DNA of 64,000 nt from Monarcha castaneiventris obscurior (Eukaryota > Chordata > Aves > Passeriformes > Monarchidae), in assembly GCA_026261815.1 (NCBI GenBank), contig JAMPIT010000230.1, forward strand, positions 1,931,501 to 1,995,500. The letters run 5' to 3'. Below are positions 17,401 through 39,712 of this stretch, piece after piece. A model generated the notes under the pieces. That model worked only from the letters and a program-made list of their open reading frames with translations, had not been told where the DNA came from and searched no databases. Position 1 is the first letter of the stretch. Each line of letters opens with the position of its first letter. A program made the position numbers and the translations under genes.

Positions 17401-17424
17401 GGTGAGGCAGGGAGGTTGTTGGGC

Positions 17425-17632
17425 TATTTTATTTTATTTTATTTTATTTTATTTTATTTTATTTTATTTTATTTTATTTTATTTTATTTTATTTTATTTT
17501 ATTTTATTTTATTTTATTTTATTTTACTTTATTTTATTTTTTCATTTTATTTATTTTCTTTTTCATTTTATTTAATTTTATTTAATTTTATTTCATTTTA
17601 TTTCATTTTATTTCATTTTGTTCTATTTTAAA
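17425..17632. repeat. (TTTTA)n pentanucleotide microsatellite
   Basis: About 200 bases of nearly pure TTTTA on the plus strand, decaying at its right end into TTTCA and TTTAA variants. On the minus strand it reads (AAAAT)n and so carries a row of AATAAA hexamers 450-660 bases after the LIM-gene stop at 18087. Confidence 0.97.
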
Positions 17633-18086
17633 AATTAATCATTCTAACACCTTTATCTTTTTTTTTTTTTTACAGACAGCTGATTAAAACATGCGAATTG
17701 ATATGCTCTGTGACCCTTTTCATAGTGCACGTGTTCATGCTTTCACCCTCTGGGGTTTTTCATGAGCTTGTTTATCATTAGTATAATTGTTAACTCCTAT
17801 AACATTTATGTTATGTAATATTTATGCAAAGGGCAGTCAGAGAGGAGCAGAGTGCAATGGCACAGGGAGAGCAGATGTAGCAATGTCCCCACACCCCAAG
17901 ACTTCAAGACACCAGGGTTCATTTCCCTCCTCTGCCCTTCTGACCTTGGCAAAGTCATTTCACTTTTCTTTTCTTATCACTGTACAGCTGATTTCAAGAA
18001 TCACTTTTGGTTCCGTATCAGCTAACTTGTGCTGCACAGAGGGCTGTGTGTCTTTTTTAACCTGTTTTTTTTTTTTCTTTTTTCAC

Positions 18087-21000
18087 CTATATAAAGAACT
18101 CCTTCTCTGAAAGGTCATAATTTAACATCTCCAAGTCTTCGGAAGACAGACTGTCATCATCTTCTTCAGCTCCTGATGTTTTTCCGCTCCTGTTCATTTT
18201 TTCAGAAGCCTCCTGGCCTGTTTTGGTTGAATCAACATCAAAATGTTCAAAGACACCCTGATTAGAGGTTTCAGAAGCACAGGTGCCGAACATGTATGTT
18301 AAGGGAAATTTGTCATCCTGTGTAGGGAGATGCTTTTTTGTGGAGCTTTCAGCAGTGAGACCCATTCCAAACATTTCTTCTGCTGCCTTTGGAGCCTGGC
18401 GCTGTGGATCCAACTGCAGCAGGAGTTCACAGCTCTGAATCCCTTCCAGGTCTCTAATATTAATCTCATCCTGCCCATCGAGAAGTGAGAGGCTGGAGGT
18501 GTCCCACAGCTCTAGTGAGGCATTTGTTTCTGATGAGATTTCCTGGAATAAATCTGAAGGATTTGGGTCAAAGAAAGATGGAATTTCTGCCTCTGAGTTT
18601 TGCAAATCTGAATTTGGAGTTTTTCTTGCTATGCTGGGGAAATCTTGTCCTCCAGAAAAGAACAAGTTACTGTCCCCCAGAAAATCCATGTTGCCGAACG
18701 GAAGTTCAGCCTCCTTGGGTAACTTTTCTGAATTGCCTGGTGAAAAAAATATCCCATCCTGTGCCACTGTGTCCTGGACATCCAAACTCAACAGGTTTTG
18801 GGTTTCTGGCAGATGAGCATCATGGTGATTCCCTCCCCTGGTGAGATTTCTACTGTTGTCAGCTACAGGCATAAGCTCTGGAGGAGGCTGTAGAGGGTTT
18901 GTTCCACGATTTGAGATTCCTGCAGCTTCTTTCTGATTTTCCTGTGCTGGCACGAGAGGGGGCCACCAGCTGTCCTGTTGCTGCCAAACCTGGCTATCTA
19001 AAAACTCTTGGTCATGAATGTCAAATTCAGTTCTCTCACGTTTATCATCATGTGACATATTTGTGCCAGGAGCTAACAACAGGACATCAGTCTCCTTGCC
19101 CTCAGCAGAGCCTGAGAATCCTCCAGAGCTCTCCTGGATATGTTTAGGGAGCACCTCTGTCTTTCCCGACTGTGGGAGGTGATCATTCTTGGAAGCCTTT
19201 TGCTTTGCTTGGCTGGAGGAGCTGAGGAGGCCCTGTGCCTTTTCTGTCCTGCCATCAATATTTGCTTGTTCTGAGGATCCTGCAGGTTTTTCTCGTGGAT
19301 TCTGCTTCTTCTCTGAGGAGTGACCAAACAAAGTGGCAAGGGCTGACTGGGGCTTTGTGGGTTTCCTCTGGATTATTGTTTCTTTCTTGGGAGCTCTGCC
19401 TTTGTCTTCAGAGCCAAAAAGGGTAATGAAGGGGTTTTTCCCAAGCCTGAAACCTTTACCTGATGTCTCTCTAGAGGCTTGGCTGCTTCTGGCCTCCTTG
19501 CTCTGAGCACCAGTCTGTGACATAGGCACGGTGCTTTCCTCTGGGAGTTTCAGATCCACTTTTTCTTCACCTACTGGATGGCCTCTGGATTTGTCCAAGG
19601 ATGTATTTGGTTTGGAATATTCCGATGTCTTGGCTGGTTGCTCAGAAATGTGCAAGGTGTTTTCACTAAGAACTTCCCTGGAATCCTTTGACTTGGAGTT
19701 GTTGTCTTCATCATGTGAGGGGCAAGTGGCACAAGTTTCTTTCAGAGGAGTGTCTGTTGATACTGGAAAACCCTTGCCAGGTGATTTCATATCATGTGTC
19801 CAAATACCCTCATAAGTGGTAGTTTTCAGTGGGCCACATGTGTCTGGAGGTTCCATTTCTTGTAAAGAGGGCACATTGTTATCATCTGTCCTGTTTGGAG
19901 AACCGGGTGAAGAAACTCTGCTCTTTTCAGCTTCATTTTCTTGAGATGTGTGCTCAGGATTGGGCTCTTCCGGAGACCCTGACACACTTACTGGTTTCTC
20001 TTTTTTTGTCTTCTCAAATTCTGCCCCTTTGCTCTCAATTCCAGGCAAATCTCCACTGCTGGATGGCTGCATAGCTTCCCCCAAAGTTACTGGCATCCGT
20101 TTCCCAGGGAACTCTCTGGTGTTTGCCTTTGATTTCTCATTCAGCATTTCAGTGATCTCAGGTGACACACCCAGTCCTCCTGGCTCCAGGGACCCAGAAG
20201 ATACAGAAGAAGTCCTCAACACACCAGAAGGGGAATGGACTTCTTCACCTTCATTTTCAGGGGGATCAACAGCCTCAGCTACACATTTTAGCTCTGTACT
20301 TGTGTTTCTGGTTTCGGGCTCTCCTGGCACACAAATGGTCTGTGTGCTGTTCATTCCCTCTCCAAGGTGATGCTTGGCCCCTGCAGTATCTGGGGTGGCT
20401 ACAGTCAGTTTAGGCTCATCATCTGTCATTGTCCCTCCTTCACTGGGTGTGCTCAGAGACCCACAGACCTTGTTTTGTGTCACTGGGACCTCTGTGTCAG
20501 CGAGAATGCAGCCACCCGTGCCCCCCAGGTACATCCACGAGGTGGGTTTAGTGCTTTGGCGTGTGGGGTGGGGAGCAAGTGAGCCACGAGGCAGGGGTTT
20601 CACAGGCTCCAGGGGTTTCACAGGCTCCAGGACGGGAGGGAGGGAGGCACAGGCAGGTGCTCTCTTCAGCTGGGCTTGGCCCTGCTGGATTGCAGCCACT
20701 CGCTGGGACACCTTCCCCTCTTGCTTCCCTTCAGGCACATCCCCATCCCCAGTCTCTTCATGGCCTCTCTGGCCTCTGTTCTTGGGCCAGGAACATGCTT
20801 GCTCTCTTTGCCTGGTGTAGGTGATGCCAGGTAAGAATCTTCCCTCCTCCCCTGCTCCCTCCTGACCCCTGAGCACCATCCTTCCTGCCCTGCTGCCTGC
20901 AGCCTGGTAGGTTTGCAGGCTCAGTGCAGGCTTTTTCTGGAAACACACTCCATTACCAGCTTTTCCATTGACAGCCAAGGCTGGTTCTGAAGGTGGCCAG

Positions 21001-21264
21001 ACTGTTCTGAGCTTGTTCCCTAAGAGGACAGACCTCCTGTTCCTGTGCTCAGCCAGCTGCAGATGACACTGTGCATTGAAGGATGTGGGTTTCTCTCTTG
21101 TTTCAGTCGTTTTGGCTCTGTTGCACCACTCCCAGGGCTGTGGTCCATGCTGAACATGATGATGCTCCAGCCTTTCCATCTCACTTCTGCTTCCAGCCCC
21201 GGCCATCAGCTTGTAGTGGACTTGGCAGTAAAACACCCCGTGGAGGGCAGCATAGTTTTGCAAG
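18087..21264 (-). CDS. Terminal exon of XIRP1-linked LIM protein: LIM second half plus ~1,040-residue acidic tail
   Basis: Single open exon of 3178 nt. A good acceptor (tgtgttttccag) precedes CTTGCAAAAC; the first base completes a Ser codon begun in the exon at 22699-22823. The exon starts with the second zinc finger of a LIM domain (SLQNYAALHGVFYCQVHYK), then runs over 1,000 residues that look disordered, rich in Ser, Glu, Pro and Gln. Recognisable short motifs are KNPFITLFGSEDK and, shortly after, SALATLFGHSSEKK (nt about 19,300-19,440), a small duplicated LEPVKP element (20593-20628), DPNPSDLFQ, and an acidic end SSEDLEMLNYDLSEKEFFI. Together with the preceding exon, from its first ATG, it would encode 1099 residues. 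It lies on the same strand as, and 8-19 kb downstream of, the Xin exon. I read it as the 3' end of the XIRP1 transcription unit, comparable to the LIM-encoding 3' exons of XIRP2; a separate LIM gene is the alternative. The tail family was not otherwise recognised. Confidence 0.8.
20593..20628. repeat. Two 18-bp tandem copies inside the LIM terminal exon
   Basis: The unit aggggtttcacaggctcc is repeated exactly, adding six residues (LEPVKP) in frame. Length variation here would keep the frame. Confidence 0.95.
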
Positions 21265-21729
21265 CTGGAAAACACACATTGGCACAGCTGTCAGTGGCTA
21301 TGTGGGAGGGGAGCTGTAGCACTGATGGACAGGCTTTCAGCAAAATCATTTTTCAGTGGGGAAGGGAGGGAGCAGGTTGAAGAATGAAACCTTTCAAAAG
21401 TAGTGTTGGCTTTCTCAGAATATGTTTGATTTTTCTTTCAAATGCCAAAACACGTGAAAAATGAAACATTTCCTTGCAATGCCTCTGGGGGCTGTAGCCC
21501 AGGTTATGTGCAATCCCTTTCTCATTTACAGGCCAGGCTTCATACCAGTACTTCATCTCTTCCCCTGTATGCGCAGCGTGGACCTTATGGGTAAAAGTGC
21601 CCAGGGCTCCCATGATACAACAACTGCAGGATGGGAGGAAGTGTCTGCAGAGCTGAGGGCAACAGGATTTCAAGCAGCCTCACAGGAGGTGGCTGTCTCG
21701 GTGACTGACAAGCTGAAAACAAGTCAGCA

Positions 21730-22395
21730 TTGTGCCCTGGTCACAGGGAAGCCGACTACATCCTGAGCTGCATGGCCAAGAGAAGTGAATGTTCCTTTAT
21801 ATTTGACTTTTGTAGGATTCCATGTGGAGTACTTTGTCCAGTTTTGGGCTCCTCACAGCAAGGAATCCAGCAAAAAGCCACCAAAGTGGTGAGGGACCTG
21901 TGTCATCTGAGGAGAGGCTGAGAGATGAGTTGGCCAGGTCCTACCAGGAGAAGGTTAAGAGGGAGAAACTCACTGCTGTGTGTGTCTGTTTTATGGGAGG
22001 TTATAGAGAAGACAGGGCTGGAGTGCTCTTGAAGGGGGACAGTGACAGGATGAGAGGTGATGGGAGCAAGTTGTAAAACAGGGAATTGTGATGAGATGCA
22101 AAAAAACCATTTTCACTGGTGGTCAGATGTTCAAAGGGGGCCCCCAGCTGAAAGGCTGTGTAACCCCCATCCTTGAAGCCATTCACACCTCTCCTGGACA
22201 TGTTCCTGAGCTCCTGCGCTCCTTGGGCCTGCAGAAAGCTGGGTGGAGACTTCCAGAGGAGACTTCCAACCTGCCTGACTCGATGTGATGCTTGGGGACA
22301 TGATTTAGTGGTGGAGAGTGTTGGGTAAATGGTTGGACTCAATGACCTTAGAGGCCTTTTCCAACCTTAATGAGTCTATGATTCTATGACCATAG
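21730..22395 (+). mobile_element. CR1 LINE 3' end between the two LIM exons
   Basis: Diverged CR1 body (gaggagaggctgagagatga) ending in the hallmark ttccaaccttaatgagtcta followed by tgattctatga repeats. It sits in the intron separating the LIM half-domains. Confidence 0.85.
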
Positions 22396-22698
22396 GAGGC
22401 ACCCAATGGCTCCTCCAATTACATTCCCTATCAGTATTCCCAAACTGTAAATATTTATTGTAGTTTCAGCTCACCCTTGCACCACCATCCATGCAGATTC
22501 CTGATCCACAGGGGTCTGCAATCTTGAGGTGGGCAGACTTCAGCCTTCAGTGATGGAGAGGCAGATGGAATCAGGGAAACTGCATGCCCTTTTCCTCATT
22601 TCCTAAGTCCTGCTCTGTCAGAATTACCCTTGGGCAATTTTGAAGGAAATTACTTGGGCATCCCTTAGGAATAAATGCACCTGCGTCCTACCACTCAC

Positions 22699-22823
22699 CT
22701 CAGCTTCCTCCCGCAGACCTGACAGCAGAAACACGAGCGGTGCACACAGACCTTGTCAGTGACCACACGCTCCATGGGGTAGACAGGCTTCAGGCAGGAG
22801 GCACACATTTCTTTCAACATGGG
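22699..22823 (-). CDS. LIM-domain exon (first zinc finger), EPLIN/XIRP2 type
   Basis: A 125-nt exon too short for ordinary ORF calling. Acceptor tctctccttcttcag and donor AG/gtgagt flank it. It begins in phase 0 (PMLKEM) and ends after two bases of a codon; joining to 21264 restores frame exactly. The joined domain reads C-x2-C-x17-H-x2-C-x2-C-x2-C-x17-C-x2-H, a complete LIM pattern. The stretches KPVYPMERVV and KLSLQNYAALHG match the EPLIN (LIMA1)/XIRP2 class of LIM domains, which bind actin structures. The start phase equals the end phase of the exon at 39558-39712, so splicing from there would skip the Xin exon. Translation could instead begin at the ATG four bases into this exon if the 5' leader is non-coding. 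Confidence 0.85.
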
Positions 22824-23929
22824 CTGAAGAAGGAGAGACTGAGGTTATACAACTGAATCATGACCACCTGGAAGTGCATCTGCAAGGTAATTTACTGAAT
22901 TTCCTTCTTGCATTCTGTTTTCTTGGCTTTTTTTTTTTCCTTGTTTTTTGTGGGGTTTTTGTTTGTTTGTTTTGTTTTGTTTTGTTTTGGTTTGGTTTTT
23001 TTTGCAGATCTGTTGTGTGAGTTCAGATTCTTGTCTGGCTCAGTTTACCTGTCAGCTTGGATAGGTCAGTGTTAATTGTCATTCAGAACAGAAAGAAACA
23101 CCCTTGGGTCTCAACTGATGAGAAAAAATATGTTCATTTGATTGACAGTAAATGATTCATTCAGTTGAATCATTTAAAAACCTTGAGTAAGGTGAGAAGT
23201 GTTGTTCTGACTCAAAAACTCTGTGCAGCTCCTGGAATCACTGGTATCTCATGGCTGCTCACACAGACACATAGTCCAAACCCTGGAGAGGCAGCTTGTT
23301 TCAGTGTAAAGCTTCCACAGCTCCCTGAATCTGGTGGTTTACTCCATGTTTACTGTCTGGATTGTGTTGTGTGCCACGACCTGATTCCTCAAACACCTCT
23401 TTATGTGAAAAGCCCAGAGAATCTCTCAGGAAAGCATTGCCAGCACCAGCCTTATTAGTGGAGAGAGAGAGGAGAGAAAGAATCTTGGCTATCGGCCCAG
23501 CTGCAAAAATAGCTCCAGGTACTCTGCATGGTCAAGTGACACAGAGGGTGCAGGTGGCAGGAAGGATGCCTCTGTGCACTCCTCACTGTGGTGCAAAGCA
23601 GAGGTTCAGCTTAGCTGGCAAGTTAATCTGATAATTCAGGTCTTTCCAAAGCCCCAGAAGGAGCACAGCTGAGCCCAGCCTAACTTTGACAGGTCAGCGC
23701 TCTGAGTACTGACACTCCCTCACATCAGGGCAACTCTGCCTCTTTGTAAGGGGTTATTTGCCACAGTTTTGCTGGTGGTCTCTGATCCCTCTGGGTTTTT
23801 TTCCATATGTTCTCCCCTGGTTTGCAGCATTGTCAGCTCACAGAAGAGACAAGTTTACTTTCTGTTCTCGTGTCGAGTGGGCTGATGGCCAGATTTTAGC
23901 TTTGAGTAGAGTAAACAGTAGTCCAGAGA

Positions 23930-24095
23930 AGTTGTGCATTCCCCATCCCTGGAAGTCTTCAAGGCCAGGTTGGAAGGGGCTTGGAGCAGCCTGATGTAGT
24001 GGAAGGTGTTTCTGCAGGGGGATTGGAATGAAGATGAACTTTAAGGTCCCTTCTGACCCAAACCACTCTATGACTGTGTTTCTGTGAAACAGGAA
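23930..24095 (+). mobile_element. CR1 LINE 3'-end fragment
   Basis: ccatccctggaagtcttcaa through ggtcccttctgacccaaacc is the CR1 3' end. Confidence 0.85.
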
Positions 24096-25184
24096 AGGTG
24101 TTTCTGTATCTCAAGAGATGAGCTGACACGAAAAAGAACAAGACAGGGAACAAGAACTCTGTCTTTTACTTGCAACACACACCTGGGGAACCAATTTTTA
24201 ACTTTTTAACTTTTAATTTCATTGAGTCTGATCATATCGTTAAGGTCAGGTCACCTTTGTTTTCCTGTGACAACACTTTCAAGAAGATGAGTTTAACATT
24301 TTAAGTTTTCTTCCTTCCTTCTAGAGGGAAGCATGCAAACAAAATCCCTGTCTTTCTTTCAGTCTGCAATGATCCCAGCACCCCTCTGCTCTTCCAGTCC
24401 TCTGCAGAGAGCAGACCACAGGTCTGTAAGTGAGTACAGAAGTAATGGATGTCCTAACTCCCAGTATTCTTGGTGGAGGTCCAGTTAAGGCAATCTAAAG
24501 GGTGATACATCTACCCTGAAGCAGGCCCATGTAGTTGTACAAAATCGATCTGTTTGCAAGGTGAATTTCACCAGTGTGACTGTAGAGCTTCCTCTGATGG
24601 TGACGAGCTCTCACCCAGCACAAGGGTCTGTGTCCTGGCAGAGAAGAGAGTAACTCAACATGTCTGTGTTGTATAAGAAGAAAATGCTTTCCTTTAATAG
24701 TGACCAAAGAAGGAAGCAGAGCTGTTTAGCAAACAGGCAGGATGTCTCTCCTCTGAACTGGGAATGAATGTCTGTACTCCTGGAGTGTGTTTCCAAAGTG
24801 GGATAACCTTTTATAGGGGATATTGGTCTCTTTAATGGGGGGATTTATTTTCAATGCTCATTGTCTGATGCATGGCAAACACTCTTGCCTTCAGAGGTGT
24901 ATTTGGCAGCCCCAGGAACAAGCCTTCCTAATGGCCTGGAAGATAGAGAGGTGCTTAGAAGCAATTGAATGGCACTGTGGGTGAGGAAATTACCCTAAGG
25001 CTTCAGTGAAAAGCAGTTACAGGGTGTTCCTGGAAGGCTCTTCCAGCACACTGCTGATTACTGCAGTGCTGAAAGTTGTAGCTGGACTATGGCTTATCAG
25101 TTGTCGCCTTTTTTTCCTTGTGTGAATTAAAACCTTTATATAGCAGGAGAAGTCAGCCTGAAAACGCCTGTGTTACTGATAAGT

Positions 25185-25605
25185 GGAGAATCTGGGGAAG
25201 GGTCCGGGACACGAGGCTGATGAGGAGCAGCTGATGGCACTGGGAGGGCTCAGCCTGGAGAAAAGGAGGCTCTGGGGGGACCTTCCAGCTTTCCACAATT
25301 CCTTGACAGGAGGGTGCAGCCAGGTGGGGGTCGGTCTTTTCTCCCAAGTAGCAAGTGATAGGACCTGGCCTCAAGCTGTGCCAGGGGAGGTTTAGGCTGG
25401 GTGTTAGGAAATATTTCCTCACAGAAAGGCTTGCCAGGCATTGGAACAGGCTGTCCAGGGTAGTGGTGGAGTCACCATCCCTGGGGGGATTTAAAAGATG
25501 TGTAGATGTGACCCTCGGGGACAGGGTTGAGTGGTGTGTTGGTAGTGCTGGGGTAATGGTTGGACTCGATCTTTCCAACCTTAATGATTCTGTGATTCCA
25601 TGGTG
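25185..25605 (+). mobile_element. CR1 LINE 3' end
   Basis: Well-preserved CR1: ggctcagcctggagaaaagg, caggctgtccagggtagtgg, ending ccaaccttaatgattctgtg. Confidence 0.9.
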
Positions 25606-26989
25606 AGCACGAATCTTTCAGACTGAAGACTGAGTGTCCGCAGGGAGGCCGGTGACTGACAGAGCTGGGAAGGGCAGTAGTTTTTGTGGACACTTCAAAT
25701 GAGGCCTATTTCCTGTCCAGTGCTGCAAGAGAACCAGATCTGCAGCTGAACTTGTGCTTTGTCCCCTCAAGGAGATGCAGTTCTGGTAATACCAACTGTC
25801 CCCTGTCCTGTGGTGCAGCTAACTCTCCCAGCCTGCTTACTTTTGAAAATATCTACTGTGTGAGAATGCAGAGACCCACCAGGGTAAAGAACAGTGAACA
25901 ATGTCATGTCTTGTACCTAAAAATCACAGAAAAACTGTGACAGCTCATTTGGGATTTGAAAGTTTGTGTGTGCTCTGCTGGTTTATTATTGCAAAGTCTG
26001 AAGCACGGAGAATATGAACTGATCCTTCAGCTTGTGTTTGTTTCGAATCTTTGCATTTGTTTTTTCTCTCCAGCTCTTTCAGTGTCCCAAAGAGCCATGT
26101 ATGGTGCTGAAATAATGCAGCATCTGTCTCCTCATCGTATTTCAGTTCCTAGATGATGGAAATATCATGAAAGAAACACGTCTTAAATGATCTTAACCTC
26201 ATAAATGGCTCTTTGAGACATTTAAAAATCCTGTAAAACCAGAATCACAAACAATAAGATTGGTTTTTTTTAAGCAGTGGCATTGCAGGATGTTTGGGTT
26301 TATTTGAATTTATACTTTTCATTGCCCGAGCAACCTGTTTGCCACTTACTAAAATTGCTCCACAGTTGTCCTTCAAGAGAAATGAAACAAACGTGTGATG
26401 GAAGCTGAGATGGAAACAAACAGGGGTAAGAAAGGAGTGTTGGAAGAATTTTGAAGAGGGTCTCCAGATAACTAACTCTCTCGTATTTCTGCAGTGGGTC
26501 CTACTAAAGGAATTGAGAGGGTCTAAGTGGTTATTTTATTCAGATTGCCTGAAAATAGATATGCTCAGTTTATTATGATCTGGTCTTCCAGCTCAGCCTT
26601 CAGTGTGCAACTGAAAATTATGTTCCTATTCTTCTTTTGGCACGTCTTTAAAATTTTTGGGTTTCTAGATGTAAATCAATGAGACCTCTTTTCTGGGGAG
26701 GAAGCAGAACTCCTGCATGGTCTAGAACACCTTGAACAAGGTCTTTGTGATGCAAGATGACAACTGCTATTTAGAAACCTTGCTATGGGCTCAGGGATGT
26801 GGAGTGGTAGACTCTGAACAGTCCCTTCCTCTCCAGTGTCCTGCTCCTAATTCATTAGTGGGGGCTCTTTTTCCTCAGAGGAAAAAAAGGCAAACATTAA
26901 TCATAGCAAAGTACCGATTTTTTGTTTTTTCACTGAGGTTACTGTCCCATTCTCAGAAAGATAAAATGGTGCACTGAGAGATGAGGTGG

Positions 26990-27565
26990 CTGGCTATAGT
27001 TCAACGAGGAGGTCTACAATCTGAGCCAGGCTGTAGAACGCAGCTCCACAGCCTCACCTCAAGTCCTGTGTGCAGTTCTGGTCACCACAATAAAAGAAGG
27101 ACATTAAACTATTAGCGAGTGTCCAAAGAAGGGCAACAAAGATGATGAAGGGCCTTGAGGGGAAGCTAAATGGGGAGTGGCTGAGGGCACTTGGTCTGTT
27201 CAGCCTGGAGAAGAGGAGAGTGAGGGGAGACCTCATTATGGCCTTCAACTTCCTCATGAGGGGAAGTGGAGGGGCATGTGCCAATCTCTGTGACCAGCGA
27301 CAGGACCTGAGGGAATGGCCTGAAGCAGTGTCAGGGGAGGTTTAAGTTGGATATTAGAAAACAGCTCTTCACCCAGAGGCTGGTTGGTCACTGAATAGGC
27401 TCCCATGGAAGTGGTCACAGCACCAGCCTGAGCTCAAGAAGTGTTTGGCCAATGCTCTCAGCCACATGGAGGGATTTTTGGGGATTTCTTGTGCAGGGCC
27501 AGGAGCTGGACTCAATGGTCCTTGAGGGTCCCCTCCAACTCAGGATATTCCGTAATTCTGTGAGA
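26990..27565 (+). mobile_element. CR1 LINE 3' end
   Basis: CR1 body with ttcagcctggagaagaggag and terminus ggtcccctccaactcaggat. Confidence 0.9.
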
Positions 27566-28964: not shown

Positions 28965-28970
28965 TTTATT
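28965..28970 (-). terminator. Polyadenylation signal candidate for XIRP1
   Basis: A minus-strand AATAAA lies about 50 bases past the Xin exon stop codon. It would give a very short 3' UTR. The AT-rich 28.0-28.6 kb stretch could be a longer alternative UTR. Confidence 0.35.
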
Positions 28971-29021
28971 GTGGCCTTTCTCTTTTGTCTTATACAGTCC
29001 TCTCTTGCTCTCCAGAATCTC

Positions 29022-32000
29022 CTATTTCTTTGGCTTGGAGTTGCCAAAGGTGACAAAAACCACTCCTGGCTCCTGAAAAGTCCCATTGGTGTGGAAGTCT
29101 TCACCTGGGCTCTTCAAGTACCTCTGAAACACAGGTGAGGCAGATACCTCATACTGGGGATGAGAAACCACATCACACGTGGAAGATGTCTGTGTCTCAG
29201 ATTGCTTGGTGACTGTGGTGGACGAAGTGATGATTTTGTTTCCAAACTGGTCCATTTCCTCATACTGCTCCATGACAGTCCGGGTGGCTCCGTAGAGCTT
29301 GGACCCGTCAGGCCCTGTCTGCAGCTCCAAGATGCTTTTCTGCCTCCGCGGATTTTGTGGGCTGGGGACATTCAGGGAGCGGTATTCTGAAAAGCTGCCT
29401 TTCATCCCACAGTGGCAGCTGTCTTTGGAGGTGTCCAGAGAGCACTTCTCTTTGTCACTGGTTGGATGGTTGGCGTTGCCAAGCATGTGCTGTTTCATCG
29501 AGCTCAGCCCAGCTTTTGTTTGGACAGGGTCTGGCCTCTTCTCTAAGGGTTTTGTGTCATGCCCAGCAGACCCTGCTGAGGGGTGGTTAAAGGAGCTAAA
29601 GCTGTTCTGAGCAAAAGCATCTCTCTTTCCTGGAGAGTCAAGACAGTCTGGTGAAGAGCCATCCTGGGGGGAATGTGCTGTCCTGGGTGATTCTGCTGGT
29701 TTCCTGGCAGCAGACTCAATGGAGATGTAGGAAGGTGAGGAGGGAGAGCTGACACGAGACTGAATGAGGCGGGGGACCCCTAGCTCTGCCTTGGCTCCCT
29801 CAGTTTTTTCTACCACCTTTGCACTTTCCACAGATGCTGCTTCCCCTGTCTCCAGCATGACTTCCTCCTGCTTGGCTTTGCTTGAGACAATGCTGATTTT
29901 ACGGATATTGCTACTGCTCACAGAGCTTTGGGTGCTCCCCAGAGACTCCTTGAACAACCCGGAGAGCCCAGCAATGTCTGACTCAGACTTGAGATTAGAA
30001 ACAGAATAAATAGCTTTCTTGATGGCCTCCTCGATGTCCTGGATGCGGGCAAGTGTCTGCTCCTTCAGGTGGAGAATCTCAGCACTTGCTCGCTCCAGGT
30101 CCTCAAAAACCAGATCCACTGAGGAGACACTGTCAGCATCCTCCTTTGCCTCAGCCTTGTCCTGTTGCTTGGCCTTCTGGCGCACAACCCACTCGGGGAC
30201 CTTCTCAAAGAAGCTCTTGAGAGCTTTCACATCCACTTTGCTTGTCTCCTCCTCAAACTCCCTCACTCGGTTCAAGATCTCTTGCAGTTGCTCCTGTCTC
30301 CTGAGGTTCTCAAAGATCTCCATAGCCTCCTTGACATTGCCTTTCATGATCTCCTCTTTGTGTACTGACAACCTCTTCCGACGCTCATCTTCAGTTTCTC
30401 TCTTTTTTTTTTCTCTCATAACAACCGCTGGCTTCTCCTGGGCAGGTGTCTCTGCCTCCCTATCAGGACATTTCCGTTGCCTGCTATTCCCCTGCTGGTG
30501 CTCCTCAAAGGAGTTCATTGACTGCTGATGGAAGGACATTGAATGAGACGTTTGCCTCCTCTCATGCACCTGCTGCGTGACTCTCTGACTATCCCACAAT
30601 CCATAAGAATTAGATACACTTTCCCTTTCCACCTCGGATAAAGCATTTTGTGCAGTGCCATCTCCTCTCTTCAGAGGCGTGGTGTGGCCCATAGGGGAGG
30701 TGCTTGGCTCAGTTTGTCCTGGCACATTCTGTGTCTGTGCTCTGCCAGGACAGGTTGGAGAGGACAGTGAAGAGCACCCGTTCTCCTCTTGGCACAGCTC
30801 TATCTGCCTCTGAGCCACCTCACCTGGGCATCTCCTTGGAGCAGCTGCTTTATCACTCATCATTCCCTGCTTGACTTCAAAACCAATGACTCCATTTTTC
30901 ATTGGCTTTGAGGTCTTAGCACTGTCTGATTCTACCTTTCCTTGTCCTCCTTTGCTGGCCTTGTACCTTTCTTCTGCTATTTGAAGAGGGGTTTTGGCAG
31001 TGTATTTTGGCAGCTTTCTCTCAGGGTTTATACCCTGAACTGTGACAGACCTCTTCACAGATGTCTCCAAATTGCAATGTTTTGCCTGAACCTCCTCATA
31101 GCCTGTTTGTTCATGAACTTCCATGCAGCTTAATCCCAGCTCTGTGGGGGAAGGCTTTGGCTTGCTAATCTCCCTCAAGCCTAAAGGTTTTGGAGGCAGG
31201 GGTGGAGGGATGGGTTTGGTTGACTTGCTTGTGCTGTTATTTGCAGAGGCAGAATGCGCCTCGTGTAAGAGATGCTCAGGTTTTGGAGGAGGAACAGGTT
31301 TTTTCCTGGGTGGGGTAGTAGTTTCTGGTTTTGGAGGAGTCCTGGGCTTCTCTGCAGGACTGTGATCATTGGGTTTGCAGGACAGAGAAGGGAGAGCAGG
31401 AAGAGGGGTCTGGAGTAGTGCAGAACATCCTGGGGCTTCATCTTTGCTGGTTGGTAATAGAAGGGCACCTTCTCTTGCTGCTTTAGTTGAGGGTGGGCAA
31501 TGCTCTGCTTTCATCACAGCAACTGAGGGAGGAGGAGGAAAGTCATTATCAGCCTGCGACCCTGAAGCCACTACAGCAGTCTCGTTACTAGTGAGTTGAG
31601 TCTCATTTTTCTTTTTACATACAGAATAGGACTGCCCTGCATTTCTGTATATCATAGCGGCTTTAAAATCCCCTCTGGAGACATTAACGTTAGACTTTTC
31701 CAGTGACTGAAGTGTGGCTTTTAAATTACCTCGGACAACGTCCTCCTTTTCTACCAGGCGCTGTTCTGTGGCGGCACTTTGCAGTGCTCTGATAGCTGTC
31801 TGCACATCCCCTCTGACACCACCATCTCTTTCTTCTTGCACTGATTGCTCTTTGTAATCAGACTCAACACAAGGGTTTATATAGGTTTTCACAGGTGTGG
31901 CAGTATAAAGGCCATCCTTAATGCTAAAATCTCTACTGGGCACAACTTGGATTTCCTGGCTCAATAGTTGTCCTCCCTGTACTTCCTCAGAAGCACTGAC

Positions 32001-35000
32001 CTTTTTGTGTGATGCTATGCTCTTCTGAGACACGCTTGTGTGGGTCTTGGATGCCTCCTGGACTCTGGTGGTGGTGGTCCTGGTGGCAGTGCTGCTGCTC
32101 TCCTGCTTGGTGGATGAAGTGTCCTGTTGGTGTACGGTCGATTGAAGGGTCATGGTCCCCTGTGAGCTGACTGTCTGCTGCCTGCAGGCTGTGTGGACCT
32201 CCTCCCTGTTCCTCTGGAACTTGCTCTGAACGTGGTGCTGAATGTTTTTTGCTTCGGCTGTCGCCAGCCTCAGGCTTTGCATTGCAGCCTGAAGATCACT
32301 CCCCAGGGCCTTTTCTTCTGTCTGACTCTGACTGGCTTCCCCAGTCACCACACTCTGCTGTTTCCCATCCACTTCTGCCCTCTGAGCTGTCACTTGGGCT
32401 GGAAATGTGCCTTGCATCATAGTTTTTGGTTCCTTCAAATGGGCAGTGGTGGCTTCCTTCTCTGCCTTCTTGCTGGCATCTGCAACCCTTTGGATTGACT
32501 TTGTAGTCACCTTAAGCCCTCCGGACAGAATTTCTTCCTTTCCCATCACTGTGGGCAGGGGCTTCCCCAGACATTGCACAGTAGTGCCAGTCACACCTGC
32601 TGCATGCACAGCCTCTCTCTCTAACACACCCTCTCTGCCCGTGCCTTCACATACAAATCCCTTTTTTGCTCCCTCCATAGCCCCTGGCTCACCTCCTGCA
32701 ATTACTTTCTCTATTTTGTCTTTATTTGGCAAGATGTGTATGTTAGCCCCCTGCACAACCCGTGGGCCGCTCTCATCTACTCCCTCCTCTGCTTGGGAAG
32801 AGATGAGGGATTGTATCTCTGACTCCTGCTGGAGATTCTTCAGATAGCTGAGGTCTCCCTTCTCAATGCAGCTTGCAAAAAGTTGGACATTTCCCTTCTC
32901 ATTGTCCTCACGCTTGATGGTGGCTGCTGCTTTCTGCTCCTGAGAAGAAGCCAACAGGTTCCCAATCGTTGACTTCACATCCCCCTTGACAACTTTCTGC
33001 TGGACAGAATGGAACAGGAGGGAATAGAGAGTCATCTTCACTGATCCCGACTTTGTCTCTTGTAGGACCATGCCCTTTTTGATGGAAGCATCTTGACTGA
33101 GGAGACCCTGTAAGGCCTTGGCTACATCTCCACTCAAGTCCTCTTTGCCTTTAACAGCTTCACTCTGGTCCAACAGCTGCAATGGGCTTACTTTGATCTT
33201 GCCCTCTCTGTCCTCCTCTACCAGCACACTCTGTGCTTCCACGTTGGTTCTGTGCAGGAGCTGCAGCATAATCCTTTGCAAGTGGCCTCCCACAATCTCC
33301 TCTTTCAGGATTTCTGGAGTTCCTGGGCTGCTGAGCTGGTACTTCACCATCTTCACACTCTCCATATCATTAGCTTCGATGAGGATCCCATCATGCTGGA
33401 TAGCTTGGCAAGTGCAGAGAGTCTCTAAAGTCTCCTTCATGGTTCTTTCTTTCAGTTCTATTTCTATGCTGCCTTCAGAAGCACTAAATTTATCAAGGGG
33501 CGTGCTCTCAAAGAGCCACGTTGTGCTTTTCACATCTGCACGAGGGATCTCTTCTTGTGGCCCAGCAGTGGCTGTCACCTCTGTGTCCTTAAGGGTGTCC
33601 ATGGGCTGGGTTTCAAACAGCCAAGTGCAGCGTTTTACATCCCCTTTCTGGCTGTCCTCTCTCTGCACTGTGCTCATGGGTGAGCTTCTCTCCGCATCCC
33701 CGTACAGGGAGTCCACAGGATGGTTCTCAAAGAGCCAAGTGGACGTCCTCACGTCACCCCGCTGCACGTCACTGACACTGACCATCCTCACATACTTCTT
33801 CTGGCCCACTTGCTGGGACTCAAAGAGCTGCTTGTTGGACTGAACATCTCCCTTCTGCACATCATCCACTGTTCTGGGCACAGACAACTTTCCCCCTGAG
33901 AAGGAGTCAAGAGGCTCTGTCTCGAACCTCCACCGGGCAGTCTGGACATCTCCTTTCTTGATGTCCTCTTGGGTGACAGCCCTAATCACAAACACCTCTT
34001 CTTCCTTCTTGATTTGATCCAGGGGCTTAGTTTCAAACAACCACCGGGCACCTTTCATATCACCTTTCATGATTTCTTCTTTCTGCACTGAGGTGACCTC
34101 ATGGTATCCCCCCTCTTTGTCCTGAATAGCGTATAAAGGTTGGCTTTCAAATAGCATTGTGCAGGACTTGACATTAGCTTTGCTCATCGTGTCTTTCTGG
34201 ATCTTCTGGAGCTCTGTCTCGTCCACTTTGTCATGGATTTGGTCAAGGGAATAGGTCTCAAATACAAATCTTTTCCCTCCAATGTCTCCCCTCTTGACAT
34301 TCTTTTCTGGAGGGATTTCCTGGATACCCTCAGAGTTGTCCTTCAAGGTGTCCATGGGGTAGTTCTCAAAGAGCCACGTGAACTTGTGCACGGACCCGGC
34401 TTCAATTGTTCCAGCATCCTTCTGGGACTTCGGCTTGGTGGCTGTGTCCAAGGGCTTGGCTTCAAAGAACTCTTTTACTCTGGACACTTCCCCAGACTGG
34501 AACTCCACACGACTGGAGTACCGCATGGTTTTTTTCCGGTCAGCTTCACTGACAGTGCTGCTGCCCAAGGGTTCGGTCTCAAACAGGTGCCGGACGGTTT
34601 TGACATCCACTCCCTGTAATTCCTCCTGACTGTAGGCCTTACTGACTTGCAAATACTGCTCCTCCTGGCCTTTCAGGGAGTCCAGGGGCTGAGTCTCAAA
34701 CATCCATGTGTAGGACTTCACATCAGCTTGGGGCACACTGCCATCCTCCTCCTGCTTCTTCTCAGCCTTCTCGTACAGGGTGTGCATGGGCTGGGTCTCA
34801 AACAGCCACCGGCAGGTCTTCACATCCCCCTTCTGGGAGATCTCCCGCTTCACTGAGGGATGCTTCTCCCCTTCCGTGGCTTGGAGATGAATGACATCCA
34901 TGGGCTGTGTTTCAAAGAGCCACTTGGCTGTCCTGACATCACCAGCCACCACCTCTTGTTTTGTGATCCCCCGTATTATATCCACTTTCTTGATGCTTTC

Positions 35001-36704
35001 ATCAAACTGGTCCAGGGGCCTGGTTTCAAACATCCACTTGTAGTTCTTGACGTCACCACTGATGATCTGCTCTCTGCTTACAGAGGTGACTTCGTGGAAA
35101 TTGCCAAAGCTATCCTTGATGGCATACAGGGGTGTCGTCTCAAACAGGATTTGATTGGCTTTGACATTGCCAGCTGGAATCTTCTCCTCCTCCTCTTCTT
35201 TGGTGACGGGCTCAGCATCAGCCTGCTTAATGCTGTCTAAGGGGAGAGTCTCAAACAGGGTCTTGAAAGATTTCACATCCCCTTTCACTACCTCTTCCGT
35301 GCTGGTGGCTGGAATTTCTTCCTCAAATGCCTTAGAGATACTGCCAAGGGGACAGGTCTCAAAGACGTGTTTTCTTTGCTTCACATCTCCCTTCTCCTCT
35401 GCTGAAGGCTCTACTTTCTTCAAACGTCCGACCTCAAAATTGTCTTTCAGTGTTTCCATCGGCTGCGTTTCGAAGAGCCAGAGTGTAGATTTCACATCAC
35501 CTCCAATGACTTGTTCTTTGGTTACAACACTTTCCGGAGCTTCTCCTTTCAGGGAGTCTAGAGTCTGGGTCTCAAAGAGCAGTCGCTGCTTAGTGACATC
35601 TGCCCCTGTGACAAAATCTGTCGAAGCCTTGAAGTCCTGTTCTTCAACTGTGATTTCTCTGATGGCATCCAAAGGCTGAGTTTCAAATATCCACCTTGCA
35701 CCACTGACATCGGGCCTTCCAATTTCTTCCAGTGAAATCCCACGGATTATCTGCACTTTGGAAGTGTCCTTGTTGATGGTATCCAGAGGCTGAGTCTCAA
35801 ACAGCCAGCGAGCTGTCCTGACCGCATTGGTCTGAATTTCTTCTCGGCAGACAGACTTGATTTCATGGATAGTCCCACTTTTGTCTCTGATGGCACAGAG
35901 GGGCTCTGTTTGGAAAAGCCTGACAGTCTTCTTAACATCGCCTTTAAGCTCCTGGATTTCTGACTTGAGTTGTAGGATGCTCTTCTCTTCCACTGAGGAG
36001 CAGCGTCCTATGGCATCCAAGGACTGTGCTTCAAAGAGCTGTTTGGCCCCTTTCACGTCACCTCCCTGGACAGGCTCCTTGAGAACTGCCTCCTGCACCT
36101 CAGTTTCATCCGAATACAATTTGTTTAATGTGTCCAGTGGTTGGGTTTCAAAGAGCCACCGGGCAGTGCGAACATCCCCTCTGGCAAGGTCCGTTTCTGA
36201 CACCTTGGCTGATGTTGACAGGTTGTATCCATTTATGGATTGGCTTTCAAACCTCAGGGAAGTGCTTTTCACATCCCCACTAGGAATGATCTCTTCTTCT
36301 GTCAGCTTCTTTGTGGCTTGGTGGTCCCCAATGGAGTCAAGTGCCCAGTTCTCAAAAATCCAGCGCATGGACTGAACCTCTCCCGGGAGAACTTTATCCA
36401 GGTTCACAGAGGCCTGTGCATTGGGATCCTCGGTGTTAAGCATTTCTGCCAGGTCCTCAGTCACAGCTTCTTCCAGGTTCTTCCTGAGCTCGGGGTGCAT
36501 GTGCCTGTAGAGCCTCTTCAGCTCGTTCACCTGGCGCTGCTGGTAGAACTTGGAGAAGGCTTGCTTTGGAGGAGGCACAGGGAGTGCATTGAGATCCTGA
36601 CCCCCTGGAGCGACGACCTGGACTGAGCTAACGGCTGGAGGGGGAGGCAGGTCATCTTCCATTTTCTTGATGGCAACTTTAGATGATTTCTGAGCTTCTG
36701 ACAT
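29022..36704 (-). CDS. XIRP1: Xin actin-binding repeat-containing protein 1, main exon
   Basis: One uninterrupted exon of 2560 codons. XIRP1 (Xin, CMYA1) is a striated-muscle protein of intercalated discs and myotendinous junctions that bundles F-actin through Xin repeats. Near residues 50-90 is the family N-terminus (FSKFYQQRQVNELKRLYRH). From about residue 110 to 1075 (nt 33,480-36,385) I count 27 clear repeats of the form DVK-x5-LFET-x-PLD-x-I, followed by decayed ones. Mid-protein features are an exact FPPPP Ena/VASP EVH1 ligand (nt about 31,540), a less exact LPPPP near the N-terminus, and SH3-type proline clusters (KPVPPPKPE, IPPPLPPKP; about 31,170-31,340). The C-terminal block QKSILELQTGPDG...YGATRT is typical of XIRP1. 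I start at MSEAQKSS because a 3' splice site (ctgtttccccaaag) abuts that ATG; the 11 codons upstream are probably intron. Because the acceptor is in phase 0, the ATG could also be internal in a longer product. Confidence 0.95.
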   Translation of the reverse strand: MSEAQKSSKVAIKKMEDDLPPPPAVSSVQVVAPGGQDLNALPVPPPKQAFSKFYQQRQVNELKRLYRHMHPELRKNLEEAVTEDLAEMLNTEDPNAQASVNLDKVLPGEVQSMRWIFENWALDSIGDHQATKKLTEEEIIPSGDVKSTSLRFESQSINGYNLSTSAKVSETDLARGDVRTARWLFETQPLDTLNKLYSDETEVQEAVLKEPVQGGDVKGAKQLFEAQSLDAIGRCSSVEEKSILQLKSEIQELKGDVKKTVRLFQTEPLCAIRDKSGTIHEIKSVCREEIQTNAVRTARWLFETQPLDTINKDTSKVQIIRGISLEEIGRPDVSGARWIFETQPLDAIREITVEEQDFKASTDFVTGADVTKQRLLFETQTLDSLKGEAPESVVTKEQVIGGDVKSTLWLFETQPMETLKDNFEVGRLKKVEPSAEEKGDVKQRKHVFETCPLGSISKAFEEEIPATSTEEVVKGDVKSFKTLFETLPLDSIKQADAEPVTKEEEEEKIPAGNVKANQILFETTPLYAIKDSFGNFHEVTSVSREQIISGDVKNYKWMFETRPLDQFDESIKKVDIIRGITKQEVVAGDVRTAKWLFETQPMDVIHLQATEGEKHPSVKREISQKGDVKTCRWLFETQPMHTLYEKAEKKQEEDGSVPQADVKSYTWMFETQPLDSLKGQEEQYLQVSKAYSQEELQGVDVKTVRHLFETEPLGSSTVSEADRKKTMRYSSRVEFQSGEVSRVKEFFEAKPLDTATKPKSQKDAGTIEAGSVHKFTWLFENYPMDTLKDNSEGIQEIPPEKNVKRGDIGGKRFVFETYSLDQIHDKVDETELQKIQKDTMSKANVKSCTMLFESQPLYAIQDKEGGYHEVTSVQKEEIMKGDMKGARWLFETKPLDQIKKEEEVFVIRAVTQEDIKKGDVQTARWRFETEPLDSFSGGKLSVPRTVDDVQKGDVQSNKQLFESQQVGQKKYVRMVSVSDVQRGDVRTSTWLFENHPVDSLYGDAERSSPMSTVQREDSQKGDVKRCTWLFETQPMDTLKDTEVTATAGPQEEIPRADVKSTTWLFESTPLDKFSASEGSIEIELKERTMKETLETLCTCQAIQHDGILIEANDMESVKMVKYQLSSPGTPEILKEEIVGGHLQRIMLQLLHRTNVEAQSVLVEEDREGKIKVSPLQLLDQSEAVKGKEDLSGDVAKALQGLLSQDASIKKGMVLQETKSGSVKMTLYSLLFHSVQQKVVKGDVKSTIGNLLASSQEQKAAATIKREDNEKGNVQLFASCIEKGDLSYLKNLQQESEIQSLISSQAEEGVDESGPRVVQGANIHILPNKDKIEKVIAGGEPGAMEGAKKGFVCEGTGREGVLEREAVHAAGVTGTTVQCLGKPLPTVMGKEEILSGGLKVTTKSIQRVADASKKAEKEATTAHLKEPKTMMQGTFPAQVTAQRAEVDGKQQSVVTGEASQSQTEEKALGSDLQAAMQSLRLATAEAKNIQHHVQSKFQRNREEVHTACRQQTVSSQGTMTLQSTVHQQDTSSTKQESSSTATRTTTTRVQEASKTHTSVSQKSIASHKKVSASEEVQGGQLLSQEIQVVPSRDFSIKDGLYTATPVKTYINPCVESDYKEQSVQEERDGGVRGDVQTAIRALQSAATEQRLVEKEDVVRGNLKATLQSLEKSNVNVSRGDFKAAMIYRNAGQSYSVCKKKNETQLTSNETAVVASGSQADNDFPPPPSVAVMKAEHCPPSTKAAREGALLLPTSKDEAPGCSALLQTPLPALPSLSCKPNDHSPAEKPRTPPKPETTTPPRKKPVPPPKPEHLLHEAHSASANNSTSKSTKPIPPPLPPKPLGLREISKPKPSPTELGLSCMEVHEQTGYEEVQAKHCNLETSVKRSVTVQGINPERKLPKYTAKTPLQIAEERYKASKGGQGKVESDSAKTSKPMKNGVIGFEVKQGMMSDKAAAPRRCPGEVAQRQIELCQEENGCSSLSSPTCPGRAQTQNVPGQTEPSTSPMGHTTPLKRGDGTAQNALSEVERESVSNSYGLWDSQRVTQQVHERRQTSHSMSFHQQSMNSFEEHQQGNSRQRKCPDREAETPAQEKPAVVMREKKKRETEDERRKRLSVHKEEIMKGNVKEAMEIFENLRRQEQLQEILNRVREFEEETSKVDVKALKSFFEKVPEWVVRQKAKQQDKAEAKEDADSVSSVDLVFEDLERASAEILHLKEQTLARIQDIEEAIKKAIYSVSNLKSESDIAGLSGLFKESLGSTQSSVSSSNIRKISIVSSKAKQEEVMLETGEAASVESAKVVEKTEGAKAELGVPRLIQSRVSSPSSPSYISIESAARKPAESPRTAHSPQDGSSPDCLDSPGKRDAFAQNSFSSFNHPSAGSAGHDTKPLEKRPDPVQTKAGLSSMKQHMLGNANHPTSDKEKCSLDTSKDSCHCGMKGSFSEYRSLNVPSPQNPRRQKSILELQTGPDGSKLYGATRTVMEQYEEMDQFGNKIITSSTTVTKQSETQTSSTCDVVSHPQYEVSASPVFQRYLKSPGEDFHTNGTFQEPGVVFVTFGNSKPKK

Positions 36705-39557
36705 CTTTGGGGAAACAGTTTTAAATGTCAGCATCACCTCTCACCCCCCATCCCCATGGCCGTTAATGGAGTGAACGGCAAAGGGAAAAGCCAACGGGGA
36801 AATTCATGCACCCAGTAAGCTCCATACCTTTAGTTCAGTAGCACACAGCACTCCAAAGCATCACATCACTGCACACGCTCCGGGCTTGGTGTTAGCCCTG
36901 GTTCCACAGCAAAGCAAGGTCTCTAATTCGGGTGAGGTGGTTAGTCTAGAATTCCCTGGATTCAGTCCAGCTAGAGCACAAGAGAGGTGCCCGATTTGGA
37001 CTATGCCACCAAGAGAGAATGACCACAAGAAGGATAAGGCTGACTTAGAGAAGTCACCTAAAATTAACTTCTCCCTCCTGCTGCCCAGTGTCCAGGACTG
37101 ATGTTCCCAACTGAGGACCTGCAGAGAGTCTGGGAACAAAGGATCTGGGTACAGGAGAAAGCCAAGGAGCCATTTGTGAAGAGATCTCAAGAAGAAAACG
37201 GGGAGAGGGAACCAAAGTGTTAAACTGAGCTGATGAGATTGGATGGTGAGGTAACATGATGAGCTTTTGGTAGCACTATGGGGTGCCCACTGCTCAGGAG
37301 GGAGGGCTTGGGGAAGAATGTTCATCTGATTAACGATTTCTTCTGTTGCACTCAGGAGTGTACTCCACGACACCATTTGCACAAGAATAGATGCACATTT
37401 ACATAGTTGGAGACTTAAAGCTCTTCTGACTTGCAGACTTGTACAGGCATGAGGTTAACTAAGGTTTGCAAACTGCTGGAATCAGCAGGCCAAAATCTGT
37501 GCTGCCTTAGAGGGAAAAGCAAGGATGAGGGACCAGAGGTTGGGGTAGCTCCTATAGGTGGGGGCCAGGGTTAGACCAGTTTACACTCAGTCCAACTGAG
37601 CTCACCTCAAATTCACAGCAGTGTTGGTACAGAAGTGAACAGAGTGGACTGTGGTTGTCCAGCCTCCCTTTGAACCTCCCTTTCTGCAATTTTTCTCCTC
37701 AGTTTGTGCATCCTGGGCATTGAACACTCAACTGAATACCTGCAACCTGCACTGACTGAGCATTTATCCACAGGGAAGGTAGCTGAAGCCTTTAATCATT
37801 GTCTAAAAGAGACAGTAATCCTGGTGGCTTTCCTTTTAGTAAACAGATCTGCTGACCCTTGGCATGCCTGTGCAGTTACGTCTGCAGAGTTATGCCCGGA
37901 ATATTATTAGTTGTTGCTCAAAGCAATGGTGCACGGTGTTATTTCACTCTCTTACACACAGATTGTTCTGGCTAAAAATAAGTTTTGAACATTAGTAAAA
38001 GAAACCCACACTCAGAACACCAAAATCAGCATATTTTGCAGCAAGTGAAAAACACAAATCTTTTGCATGAGCCAATGCACTTGGAATGCACTTTTTAAAA
38101 TAAGCGTTTGTTGTTTGTTTTTTTTTTAATCTGTGAAAAACTTCTGAATGTGGAGAAGGGCAACTGAGCAGCTGATAGCTATATTCAGTATGAAAGTGCT
38201 CCTGGCTGCCTTGTGTGGGTATTTAGATCACACTCACAGGCCACAAATATTTGGTTAGATAACAGTGCTTATCTTAAACATTTCCTACCTTGTTTTTTTT
38301 CTGTCTGTGGGGAGAGTGAATGGAGTTGTCCTTCACAGTACTCTGGAAAAGATATGAGGAGAAATGCCATTAAACTGCACAGGGAGACACATTATCTGCA
38401 TATATATTTTTATGTGCTTATATGTAGTAATGTGTAGTAATTACAGAGACCTGAAAACCATGCAGGTGTGGTTTTCTGTTTTGGTTTACTGGCAGTTCTG
38501 TACAGTTGAGAAAACAATTTTATTCCAGGTTGATCAAAAATATGTTTTCTAAAGTGTCAGTCAACAAATAAAACTCCAAACCCATTTTTTTAAAGTTAGG
38601 GGAAAAACAAAACTAGCACTGATTTTTCCAAAGTTTGATTTAGCCTGTACTTTTCCTTATAATAACTTCAATATTTCAAAATTAAAACTGATCTACATTT
38701 TTAATTGTACTATGAATTGTGTATTTATTGCTTTGTAATTTTAAAAAAAAATAATTCTTGGTTTTCTAACCAGCTGTAATTTTCCAAATGCAGTCTCCAC
38801 TTATTTATTTTCAACTGGGACTGCTTCATCTGGACCTCTCCCTGGTCGAGAGACTGCATCTCTGAACAGGGCCCCATAAAAGTTGAGACTGTGGGGAAAC
38901 ATAAGCCTGCCTGCAGGAAGGGTCTAGGTATAAAATCCCATCCCATGTTACTCCTGGATCACCAGTGGAACTAGAGAAATGGGAAAAAAATGTGCCTCTT
39001 AACCCTTATAACCTGAATTATCACGTGGCCTGATGATCAGCCTGGAGTGGGGGATTAAATCCCTGGATCCCAGACTAAGGGATATAAAAACAGAAGCACA
39101 GGGAGGTTGCACTGTAAGGTAATGCTTGAGCGTGGCATATATATGTATATATATATATATGTGTATATCTGTGTGTGTGTGTCAGAATGAGGATAGCATG
39201 GAGACGTACATGTTACTCTGTACTAAATATTTCCTTCGTGGATGTATGTGAATATAAATGTGGAAATAAAATGGAAATCTTATGTATGAGTAAACTGTAT
39301 AGTCTAGTGAATGTAGGGGGTGTGTGTGTATGCATGTGTGAATTTAATAAGCATGTGATACATGTGTGTGTTTGTACACATTTATCTTATATTTGCAAGT
39401 GACAAGGGGAAAATGGTCACTTTTGGGAAACCAAAGGCTGTTTCTTCAGATTTACCAAGCAGACATGTTCTCTCTCACCCTCTCACAGCCACTTGCCGGG
39501 ACGGGACATTGCTGGGATGCCGCCGGTGGCTGGGGAGGGGGAGGACGCGGTCCTTAC
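36705..39557. other. Putative intron between the Xin exon and the exon at 39.6 kb
   Basis: No coding exon seen. AT-rich centre (38.0-38.8 kb). A perfect MEF2-type motif, CTAAAAATAA, lies at 37972-37981, which would suit a muscle gene but could be chance. Confidence 0.45.
39136..39182. repeat. (TA)n/(TG)n dinucleotide repeat
   Basis: Alternating TA and TG dinucleotides; the next 200 bases remain TG-rich with scattered ATG/TGTG runs. Confidence 0.9.
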
Positions 39558-39712
39558 CGGCTGTGCGGGGCTGGCGTCAGCAGCAGCAGCTGTCTGCGAG
39601 AGATACAGAGCCGACAGCTCCTTCACGGAGGGCGCAGAGGACCTCCCTCGTCCTTGCTGAAGTATGTGGCTGGTGCTGCCTGATGGGTCTAAAAATGACC
39701 GTGCCCGATCAT
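39558..39712 (-). CDS. Upstream coding exon of the XIRP1/LIM locus, SVKELSALYL motif
   Basis: A 155-nt exon inferred from a strong acceptor (gtctgtccctgtttcag), an open frame, and donor CCG/gtaagg. It needs one base from the previous exon, then reads DRARSFLDPSGS...SSAPSVKELSALYLSQ...SPAQP and ends in phase 0. The segment SVKELSALYLSQ resembles SVSELVARYQRI in the exon pair at 59457 and 58207, and the short amphipathic segments before the LIM domain of EPLIN-type proteins. Both the Xin exon (36704) and the LIM exon (22823) start in phase 0, so either can follow it. It lies in a CpG-rich stretch (39,480-39,840), so a non-coding or alternative first-exon role for XIRP1 is also possible. No transcript evidence is available. 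Confidence 0.6.

Follow-up and report, generated by a model that had tools for sequence, protein, structure and literature searches.

Xin and LIM exons in a bird XIRP1 gene and the probable formation of two proteins by alternative use of last exons

Gene structure

A stretch of 64,000 nt from the genome of the passerine Monarcha castaneiventris obscurior (assembly GCA_026261815.1, contig JAMPIT010000230.1, positions 1,931,501–1,995,500; termed the window) carries on its minus strand the coding part of the bird XIRP1 gene. The Xin repeats lie within a single giant exon and the relatives of this sequence bear the XIRP1 name. The sequence presumably also matches the human XIRP1 N-terminal region. 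Nine open exons with splice signals, all of the GT-AG type, are present and these form two uninterrupted products, one ending with the Xin exon and the other with two exons that encode a LIM domain and a long tail. Positions given below are window positions on the minus strand, unless another sequence is named.

Exon 1 (59457–59602) consists of 18 bases, an ATG codon and then MEKAEKLRPAQSF...SVSELVAR. It is flanked by an acceptor (TTTCAG) and a donor (GTGGGT), joins in frame, and was detected by tblastn with the database proteins P0002, P0005 and P0014. Because an acceptor precedes exon 1, an additional upstream exon is expected. Exon 2 (58153–58207, YQRILNGERNMAKQEHPK), exon 3 (56403–56801) and exon 4 (55569–55650, phase 1 at its end) are likewise based on tblastn, splice sites and in-frame joins. 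Exon 5 (39558–39712, SVKELSALYLSQ; tblastn and in-frame join) ends in phase 0. Exon 6 (38289–38342) has 54 bases, is in phase 0 at both ends and is the predicted switch donor, the place where database models part. Exons 1–4 and 6 were located by tblastn of avian LIM-tail database proteins against the window. These five coding exons were overlooked in an original prediction made from the window's letters. That prediction placed the common donor at 39558; in the database models it is at 38289.

The giant Xin exon (29022–36704) begins in phase 0 and encodes 2,560 residues plus a stop. The Pfam Xin model scores 485 bits on it, with 20 stretches that each pass an E-value of 1 alone. The in-frame stop is followed 52 bases further by AATAAA (at 28970), and P0063, P0083 and P0091 terminate at this stop. 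A minor donor higher up in the Xin exon is possible.

Two exons downstream encode the LIM domain. The LIM-a exon (22699–22823; acceptor CAG, donor GTGAGT) starts in phase 0, ends in phase 2 and has zinc ligands 1–6. The LIM-b plus tail exon (18087–21264; acceptor CAG) supplies zinc ligands 7 and 8, followed by an acidic tail (pI 5.1), with the stop at 18087–18089. An AATAAA is found 3′ of the tail stop as well, from 17612, inside an apparent simple repeat. Joined via a split codon, the two exons display eight of eight zinc ligands (C-x2-C-x17-H-x2-C-x2-C-x2-C-x17-C-x2-H) and a Pfam LIM score of 34.7 bits (cut-off 22.9). As the intron is between zinc ligands 6 and 7, neither LIM exon encodes the domain by itself. 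These properties, together with the splice signals, show that both exons, which were named in the original prediction, are real. The start of the Xin and LIM exons in phase 0, after an exon 5 that ends in phase 0, is also as predicted.

The open tail frame spans 1,067 codons; when the same DNA is randomised 500 times (Markov-1), the longest open frame has 318. Pfam shows no match in the tail exon, and the NCBIfam library, which is a prokaryote library, shows none for P0002, P0156 and P0157. Endocytic NPF/DxF motifs were also considered in the tail (10 DxF in gar, few in birds) and this candidate was dropped.

Two products from one gene

Exons 1–6 and the Xin exon together (seven coding exons) translate to 2,851 residues (315.7 kDa), and exons 1–6 with the LIM exons (eight coding exons) to 1,391 residues (151.8 kDa), both without an internal stop. 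The phases fit skipping of the Xin exon, with short exons before it and two LIM exons after it, an architecture like that of XIRP2. The Xin acceptor is the weakest among the nine exons; it is at the 73.5th percentile of same-strand AG sites versus the 98.8th for LIM-a, as ranked by a weight matrix.

Two examples from other birds show the relationship of the products. In the duck Anas zonorhyncha, the LIM protein P0029 and the Xin proteins P0065/P0066 share an identical 98-residue sequence and split exactly at the end of exon 6. The corresponding pair in the flycatcher Ficedula albicollis is P0005 (LIM) and P0061 (Xin), with a shared stretch of 70 identical residues that ends at the same place. 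These database models display both products, with a common 5′ part, in one species, and they support the two-way Xin/LIM architecture of the original prediction, with the parting at the exon 6 end. P0002, from a UniRef entry named ‘Xin actin binding repeat containing 1’ (n = 7, Passeriformes), extends from exon 1 through the tail end. Exons 1–6 are joined to the LIM exons in P0002, P0005 and P0014, and exons 5–6 only in P0029.

On the Xin side there are 514 matches, and among the best 120, 22 span query residues 1–430 entirely (15 birds and 7 turtles plus crocodilians); exons 1–6 are therefore part of XIRP1. A text pattern for the junction between exon 6 and Xin is found in 8 of 117 sequences (P0038–P0154) when strict and in 17 of 117 when loose; many of the other sequences begin at the Xin exon itself. 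P0063 has exons 5, 6 and Xin contiguous without introns and hence is probably a cDNA.

A 5′ extension of exon 5 into intron 4 (39713–39790) is the start of the duck Xin and LIM models and of the flycatcher Xin model. Because these models begin there, a second, proximal promoter is suggested at this position.

The evidence makes it likely that the XIRP1 gene of this bird produces two proteins through alternative last-exon use; that the LIM product is made in this bird is a prediction. Exon 6, with its donor at 38289, would be joined to the giant Xin exon, the transcript ending at the Xin stop with AATAAA just after it. Alternatively the Xin exon would be skipped and exon 6 joined to LIM-a and then to the LIM-b/tail exon. 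The weak Xin acceptor may be the regulated step.

Alternative explanations

Searches for relatives of the LIM and tail yielded 41 distinct sequences (37 from one search and 4 from another). A complete eight-ligand LIM is present in 21 of them, including sequences from ostrich, emu, duck, quail, two turtles and two gars. Among the other 20, 18 start inside the LIM-b/tail exon, one is without LIM-b and one without LIM-a.

Several properties of these relatives weigh against two products from one gene. XIRP1 exons are present in only 4 of the 21 full-LIM sequences, and the models that connect exon 6 with the LIM come from automated annotation. The remaining 17 are without XIRP1 exon 6: 14 start seven or fewer residues before the first zinc ligand, and three have other upstream sequence. 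Ten of the 21 are named ‘uncharacterized protein’ and only two XIRP1. LIM-a is found in none of the 15 lgn/jgi relatives, all of which start inside the LIM-b/tail exon, as would unspliced genomic DNA. In addition, two models (P0036 and P0037) run the LIM or tail exon into the neighbouring SLC22A13.

Alternatively, the LIM exons could form a small gene of their own that lies downstream of XIRP1, is transcribed from its own promoter and is translated from a start within LIM-a (MLKEMC...); several database models take this form. The 14 relatives that start close to the first zinc ligand are in accord with this, emu and ostrich list the LIM protein and XIRP1 as distinct proteins on contigs of equal length, and the gap of about 6 kb between Xin and LIM leaves room for a promoter. 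We consider a separate gene unlikely nevertheless. The four models that carry XIRP1 exons, from passerines and duck, extend in frame into exons 5–6 and three of them into exons 1–4; LIM exons joined to no XIRP1 exon, which would have spoken against the original prediction, are not what these models show. The LIM-a acceptor is strong and something is thus expected to be spliced to it from upstream; the sole alternative upstream stretch that could be placed on the window (from Hirundo, P0003) hits a stop here. Still less probable, to a degree that makes it a marginal explanation, is that the LIM exons are dead remnants of an earlier isoform which is out of use. The tail does diverge fast (39%–44% identity in quail), and no Eplin motif is left behind the LIM. 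A dead sequence does not fit with a tail open far beyond the random maximum, with a full set of zinc ligands in 21 of the 41 relatives (birds, turtles and gars), or with bird and turtle tails that align end to end (E-value = 1e-144). Two proteins from a single XIRP1 gene remains the preferred explanation.

The fusions with the neighbouring gene cover window positions 8341–22820, where the godwit and owlet-nightjar models P0036 and P0037 splice LIM-a, LIM-b or tail pieces into an SLC22A13-like gene. A crane sequence, P0021, has the SLC22A13 name and the XIRP1 tail sequence. These fusions are either read-through transcripts or annotation artefacts.

Relationship of the LIM domain and tail to the EPLIN group

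The best solved-structure relatives of the LIM are LIMD2 (2lzu, E-value = 2.7e-22) and EPLIN (2d8y, E-value = 3.8e-16). A 57-column LIM tree groups the bird and turtle XIRP1 LIMs with those of two gars (99/97), next to LIMD2 (95/93) and apart from CRP; a second tree gives the same order with weaker support (87/97, 88/91). By structure matches and trees the window LIM is of the EPLIN type. The original assignment to an EPLIN/XIRP2 class is right as to this group, inside which the LIM falls; the nearest member is LIMD2 and the Eplin motif has been lost.

Searches of this genome gave four LIM loci of the EPLIN type: XIRP1 (C163), XIRP2 (C355), LIMA1 (C180) and LIMD2 (C577). The intron that splits the LIM is at the identical codon and phase in all four. 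LIMD2 and LIMA1 (EPLIN) thus have the same LIM type and intron place as XIRP1, and both retain the post-LIM motif lost in bird XIRP1. Neither is known to have a Xin exon.

The EPLIN class is defined by the Eplin motif, 22 residues directly after the LIM (Koch 2012, PMC3305314). Here the motif was assessed as ungapped identity to LIMD2 across the 13 residues that follow the final LIM ligand. The identity is 0/13 in the window, 0–2/13 in 17 birds, 4–5/13 in two turtles and 10/13 in two gars. By this measure the motif appears to be lost in birds and retained in gars, with a faint trace in turtles. XIRP1 would therefore be a Xin/LIM gene by architecture and not an EPLIN-class protein by the Koch 2012 definition.

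The tail following the LIM has 1,042 residues in the window XIRP1, compared with 339 in the XIRP2 of this bird, and XIRP1 is without the Eplin motif. No likeness of the tail to the C-terminus of the short XIRP2 isoform is detected: against the bird's own XIRP2 tail the score is 53 versus a shuffled mean of 58, and 144 of 200 shuffles reach it. Against its own LIMA1 tail, 104 of 200 shuffles reach the score. The XIRP2 and LIMA1 tails of this bird are clearly alike (z = 18). A weak link is given by the turtle XIRP1 tail, which scores 88 against this bird's XIRP2 tail, a value reached by 1 of 200 shuffles.

Bird and turtle XIRP1 tails are homologous end to end, with 32% identity, and the LIM exons are present in turtles also. 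A profile comparison of bird and gar tails gave nothing (E-value = 0.61, no better than five shuffled-column controls). By plain alignment, bird or turtle XIRP1 tails against the gar tail beat 100 of 100 shuffles in each of four comparisons, and the window and turtle tails each beat 200 of 200. Against the XIRP2 and LIMA1 tails of this bird, too, the gar tail outscores 200 of 200 shuffles, and for that reason orthology of the gar LIM protein to the XIRP1 LIM is only tentative.

XIRP2 in the same genome

The XIRP2 region of this genome (G000:C355:3728630-3734630, loci L010 and L011) has open LIM exons and a relic of a Xin exon. LIM-a is around C355:3729605, and LIM-b, with a frame of 356 residues, is at 3728630. 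The locus is identified as XIRP2 by PMECLVADKQNFHKSCFR, in which 17 of 18 residues match the letters of mouse exon 8 printed in PMC10259482.

The relic extends from about 3734630 to 3734140, about 5 kb upstream of the LIM exons. With a profile built from 12 XIRP1 sequences, the relic gives a match (E-value = 8.6e-7) over 162 codons that include two stops, and a separate alignment beats 1,000 of 1,000 shuffles. A block similar to LYRHMHPELRKNL is just upstream in a different frame (E-value = 0.46, a weak match). Pfam shows no match on the relic, and a 22-residue Xin-unit profile gives only 1.5 bits. There is no open frame longer than 207 codons in the 10 kb upstream of the XIRP2 LIM exon, and no other Xin match at an E-value of 0.01 or better across 119.8 kb. 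In this bird, then, XIRP2 has open LIM exons and a Xin exon broken by in-frame stops and an apparent frameshift.

Because the Xin exon of XIRP2 is broken in the same genome, XIRP1 is likely to be the only source of Xin repeats in this bird. XIRP1 and XIRP2 have likely divided the Xin and LIM roles otherwise in birds than in mammals.

Comparison with known XIRP genes

XIRP2 of mouse and zebrafish resembles the window XIRP1 in having several short exons, a giant Xin exon and two exons that form one LIM (PMC10259482, PMC3280289). The mouse XIRP2 LIM exon (exon 8) starts in phase 0, as does LIM-a (PMC10259482). The original prediction that XIRP1 has the same architecture as XIRP2 stands with respect to layout. 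It does not extend to the end of the Xin exon, since the long form of mouse XIRP2 reads on into exon 8 in a different frame (PMC10259482), whereas here the Xin exon contains a stop and is followed by AATAAA.

The Xin exons of human and zebrafish XIRP1 are orthologous to that of the window. The human XIRP1 coding region is said to be entirely in exon 2 (PMC13267782), and zebrafish xirp1 is described as a single large exon with intraexonic splicing (PMC3280289). In the available parts of these two papers a LIM product is assigned to xirp2 only or is unmentioned. In its available part PMC7709239 has nothing on a LIM in XIRP1, and that of PMC13364712, on short actin-binding motifs, has Xin and EPLIN only as mentions in the reference list. 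No description of a LIM product of XIRP1 was found among the titles and abstract openings listed in the literature searches. XIRP1-LIM models already exist in automated databases, so the gene described here is a variant of a known architecture and not an unseen object.

By analogy with XIRP2, the LIM product of XIRP1 may be located on actin bundles, like the short XIRP2 isoform, and may serve to mark filaments under strain, or to repair them, in muscle or hair cells. This analogy is weakened by the tail, which is unlike the bird's own XIRP2 tail, and by the finding that in mouse XIRP2 it is the tail, and not the LIM, that is recruited to strain sites (PMC10259482). As the tails are not detectably alike and the Eplin motif is gone, the strain recruitment of the mouse XIRP2 tail is not simply transferable to XIRP1.

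In the accounts of XIRP1 considered here, it is a one-exon Xin gene and the LIM partner belongs to XIRP2. Should the LIM product be made, a second protein, mostly present under anonymous database names, comes from avian XIRP1. We lean slightly toward an origin of the two genes from a dual Xin/LIM gene in a vertebrate ancestor whose copies decayed oppositely: mammals (and teleosts) would have kept the LIM product only in XIRP2, and birds would have broken the XIRP2 Xin exon and kept a complete dual XIRP1 with a new tail of about a thousand residues in the LIM product. If this is true, all Xin-repeat function of the bird heart depends on one gene, and birds have two independent LIM partners for stressed actin.

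The finding may bear on two observations in chicken. Antisense treatment against Xin disturbs heart formation in chicken, whereas mice null for Xin-alpha and zebrafish mutant for xirp1 are viable (PMC2478706, PMC3280289). Chicken was also inferred to have lost Xin-beta (Grosskurth 2008, PMC2478706), yet proteomics of chick stereocilia reports XIRP2 (PMC5005036). A LIM-only XIRP2 in birds, as suggested by the one genome described here, would reconcile the latter two reports.

Other features of the window

Positions 1–3446 and 11032–14480 of the window form a tandem duplication with 97.3% identity, which has the 5′ exons of two SLC22A13-like transporter copies. Positions 6925–7277 and 25224–25567 are an inverted repeat pair (74.5% identity) that is probably a dispersed element. 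A long TTCTA pentamer microsatellite is found at about 53050–53190.

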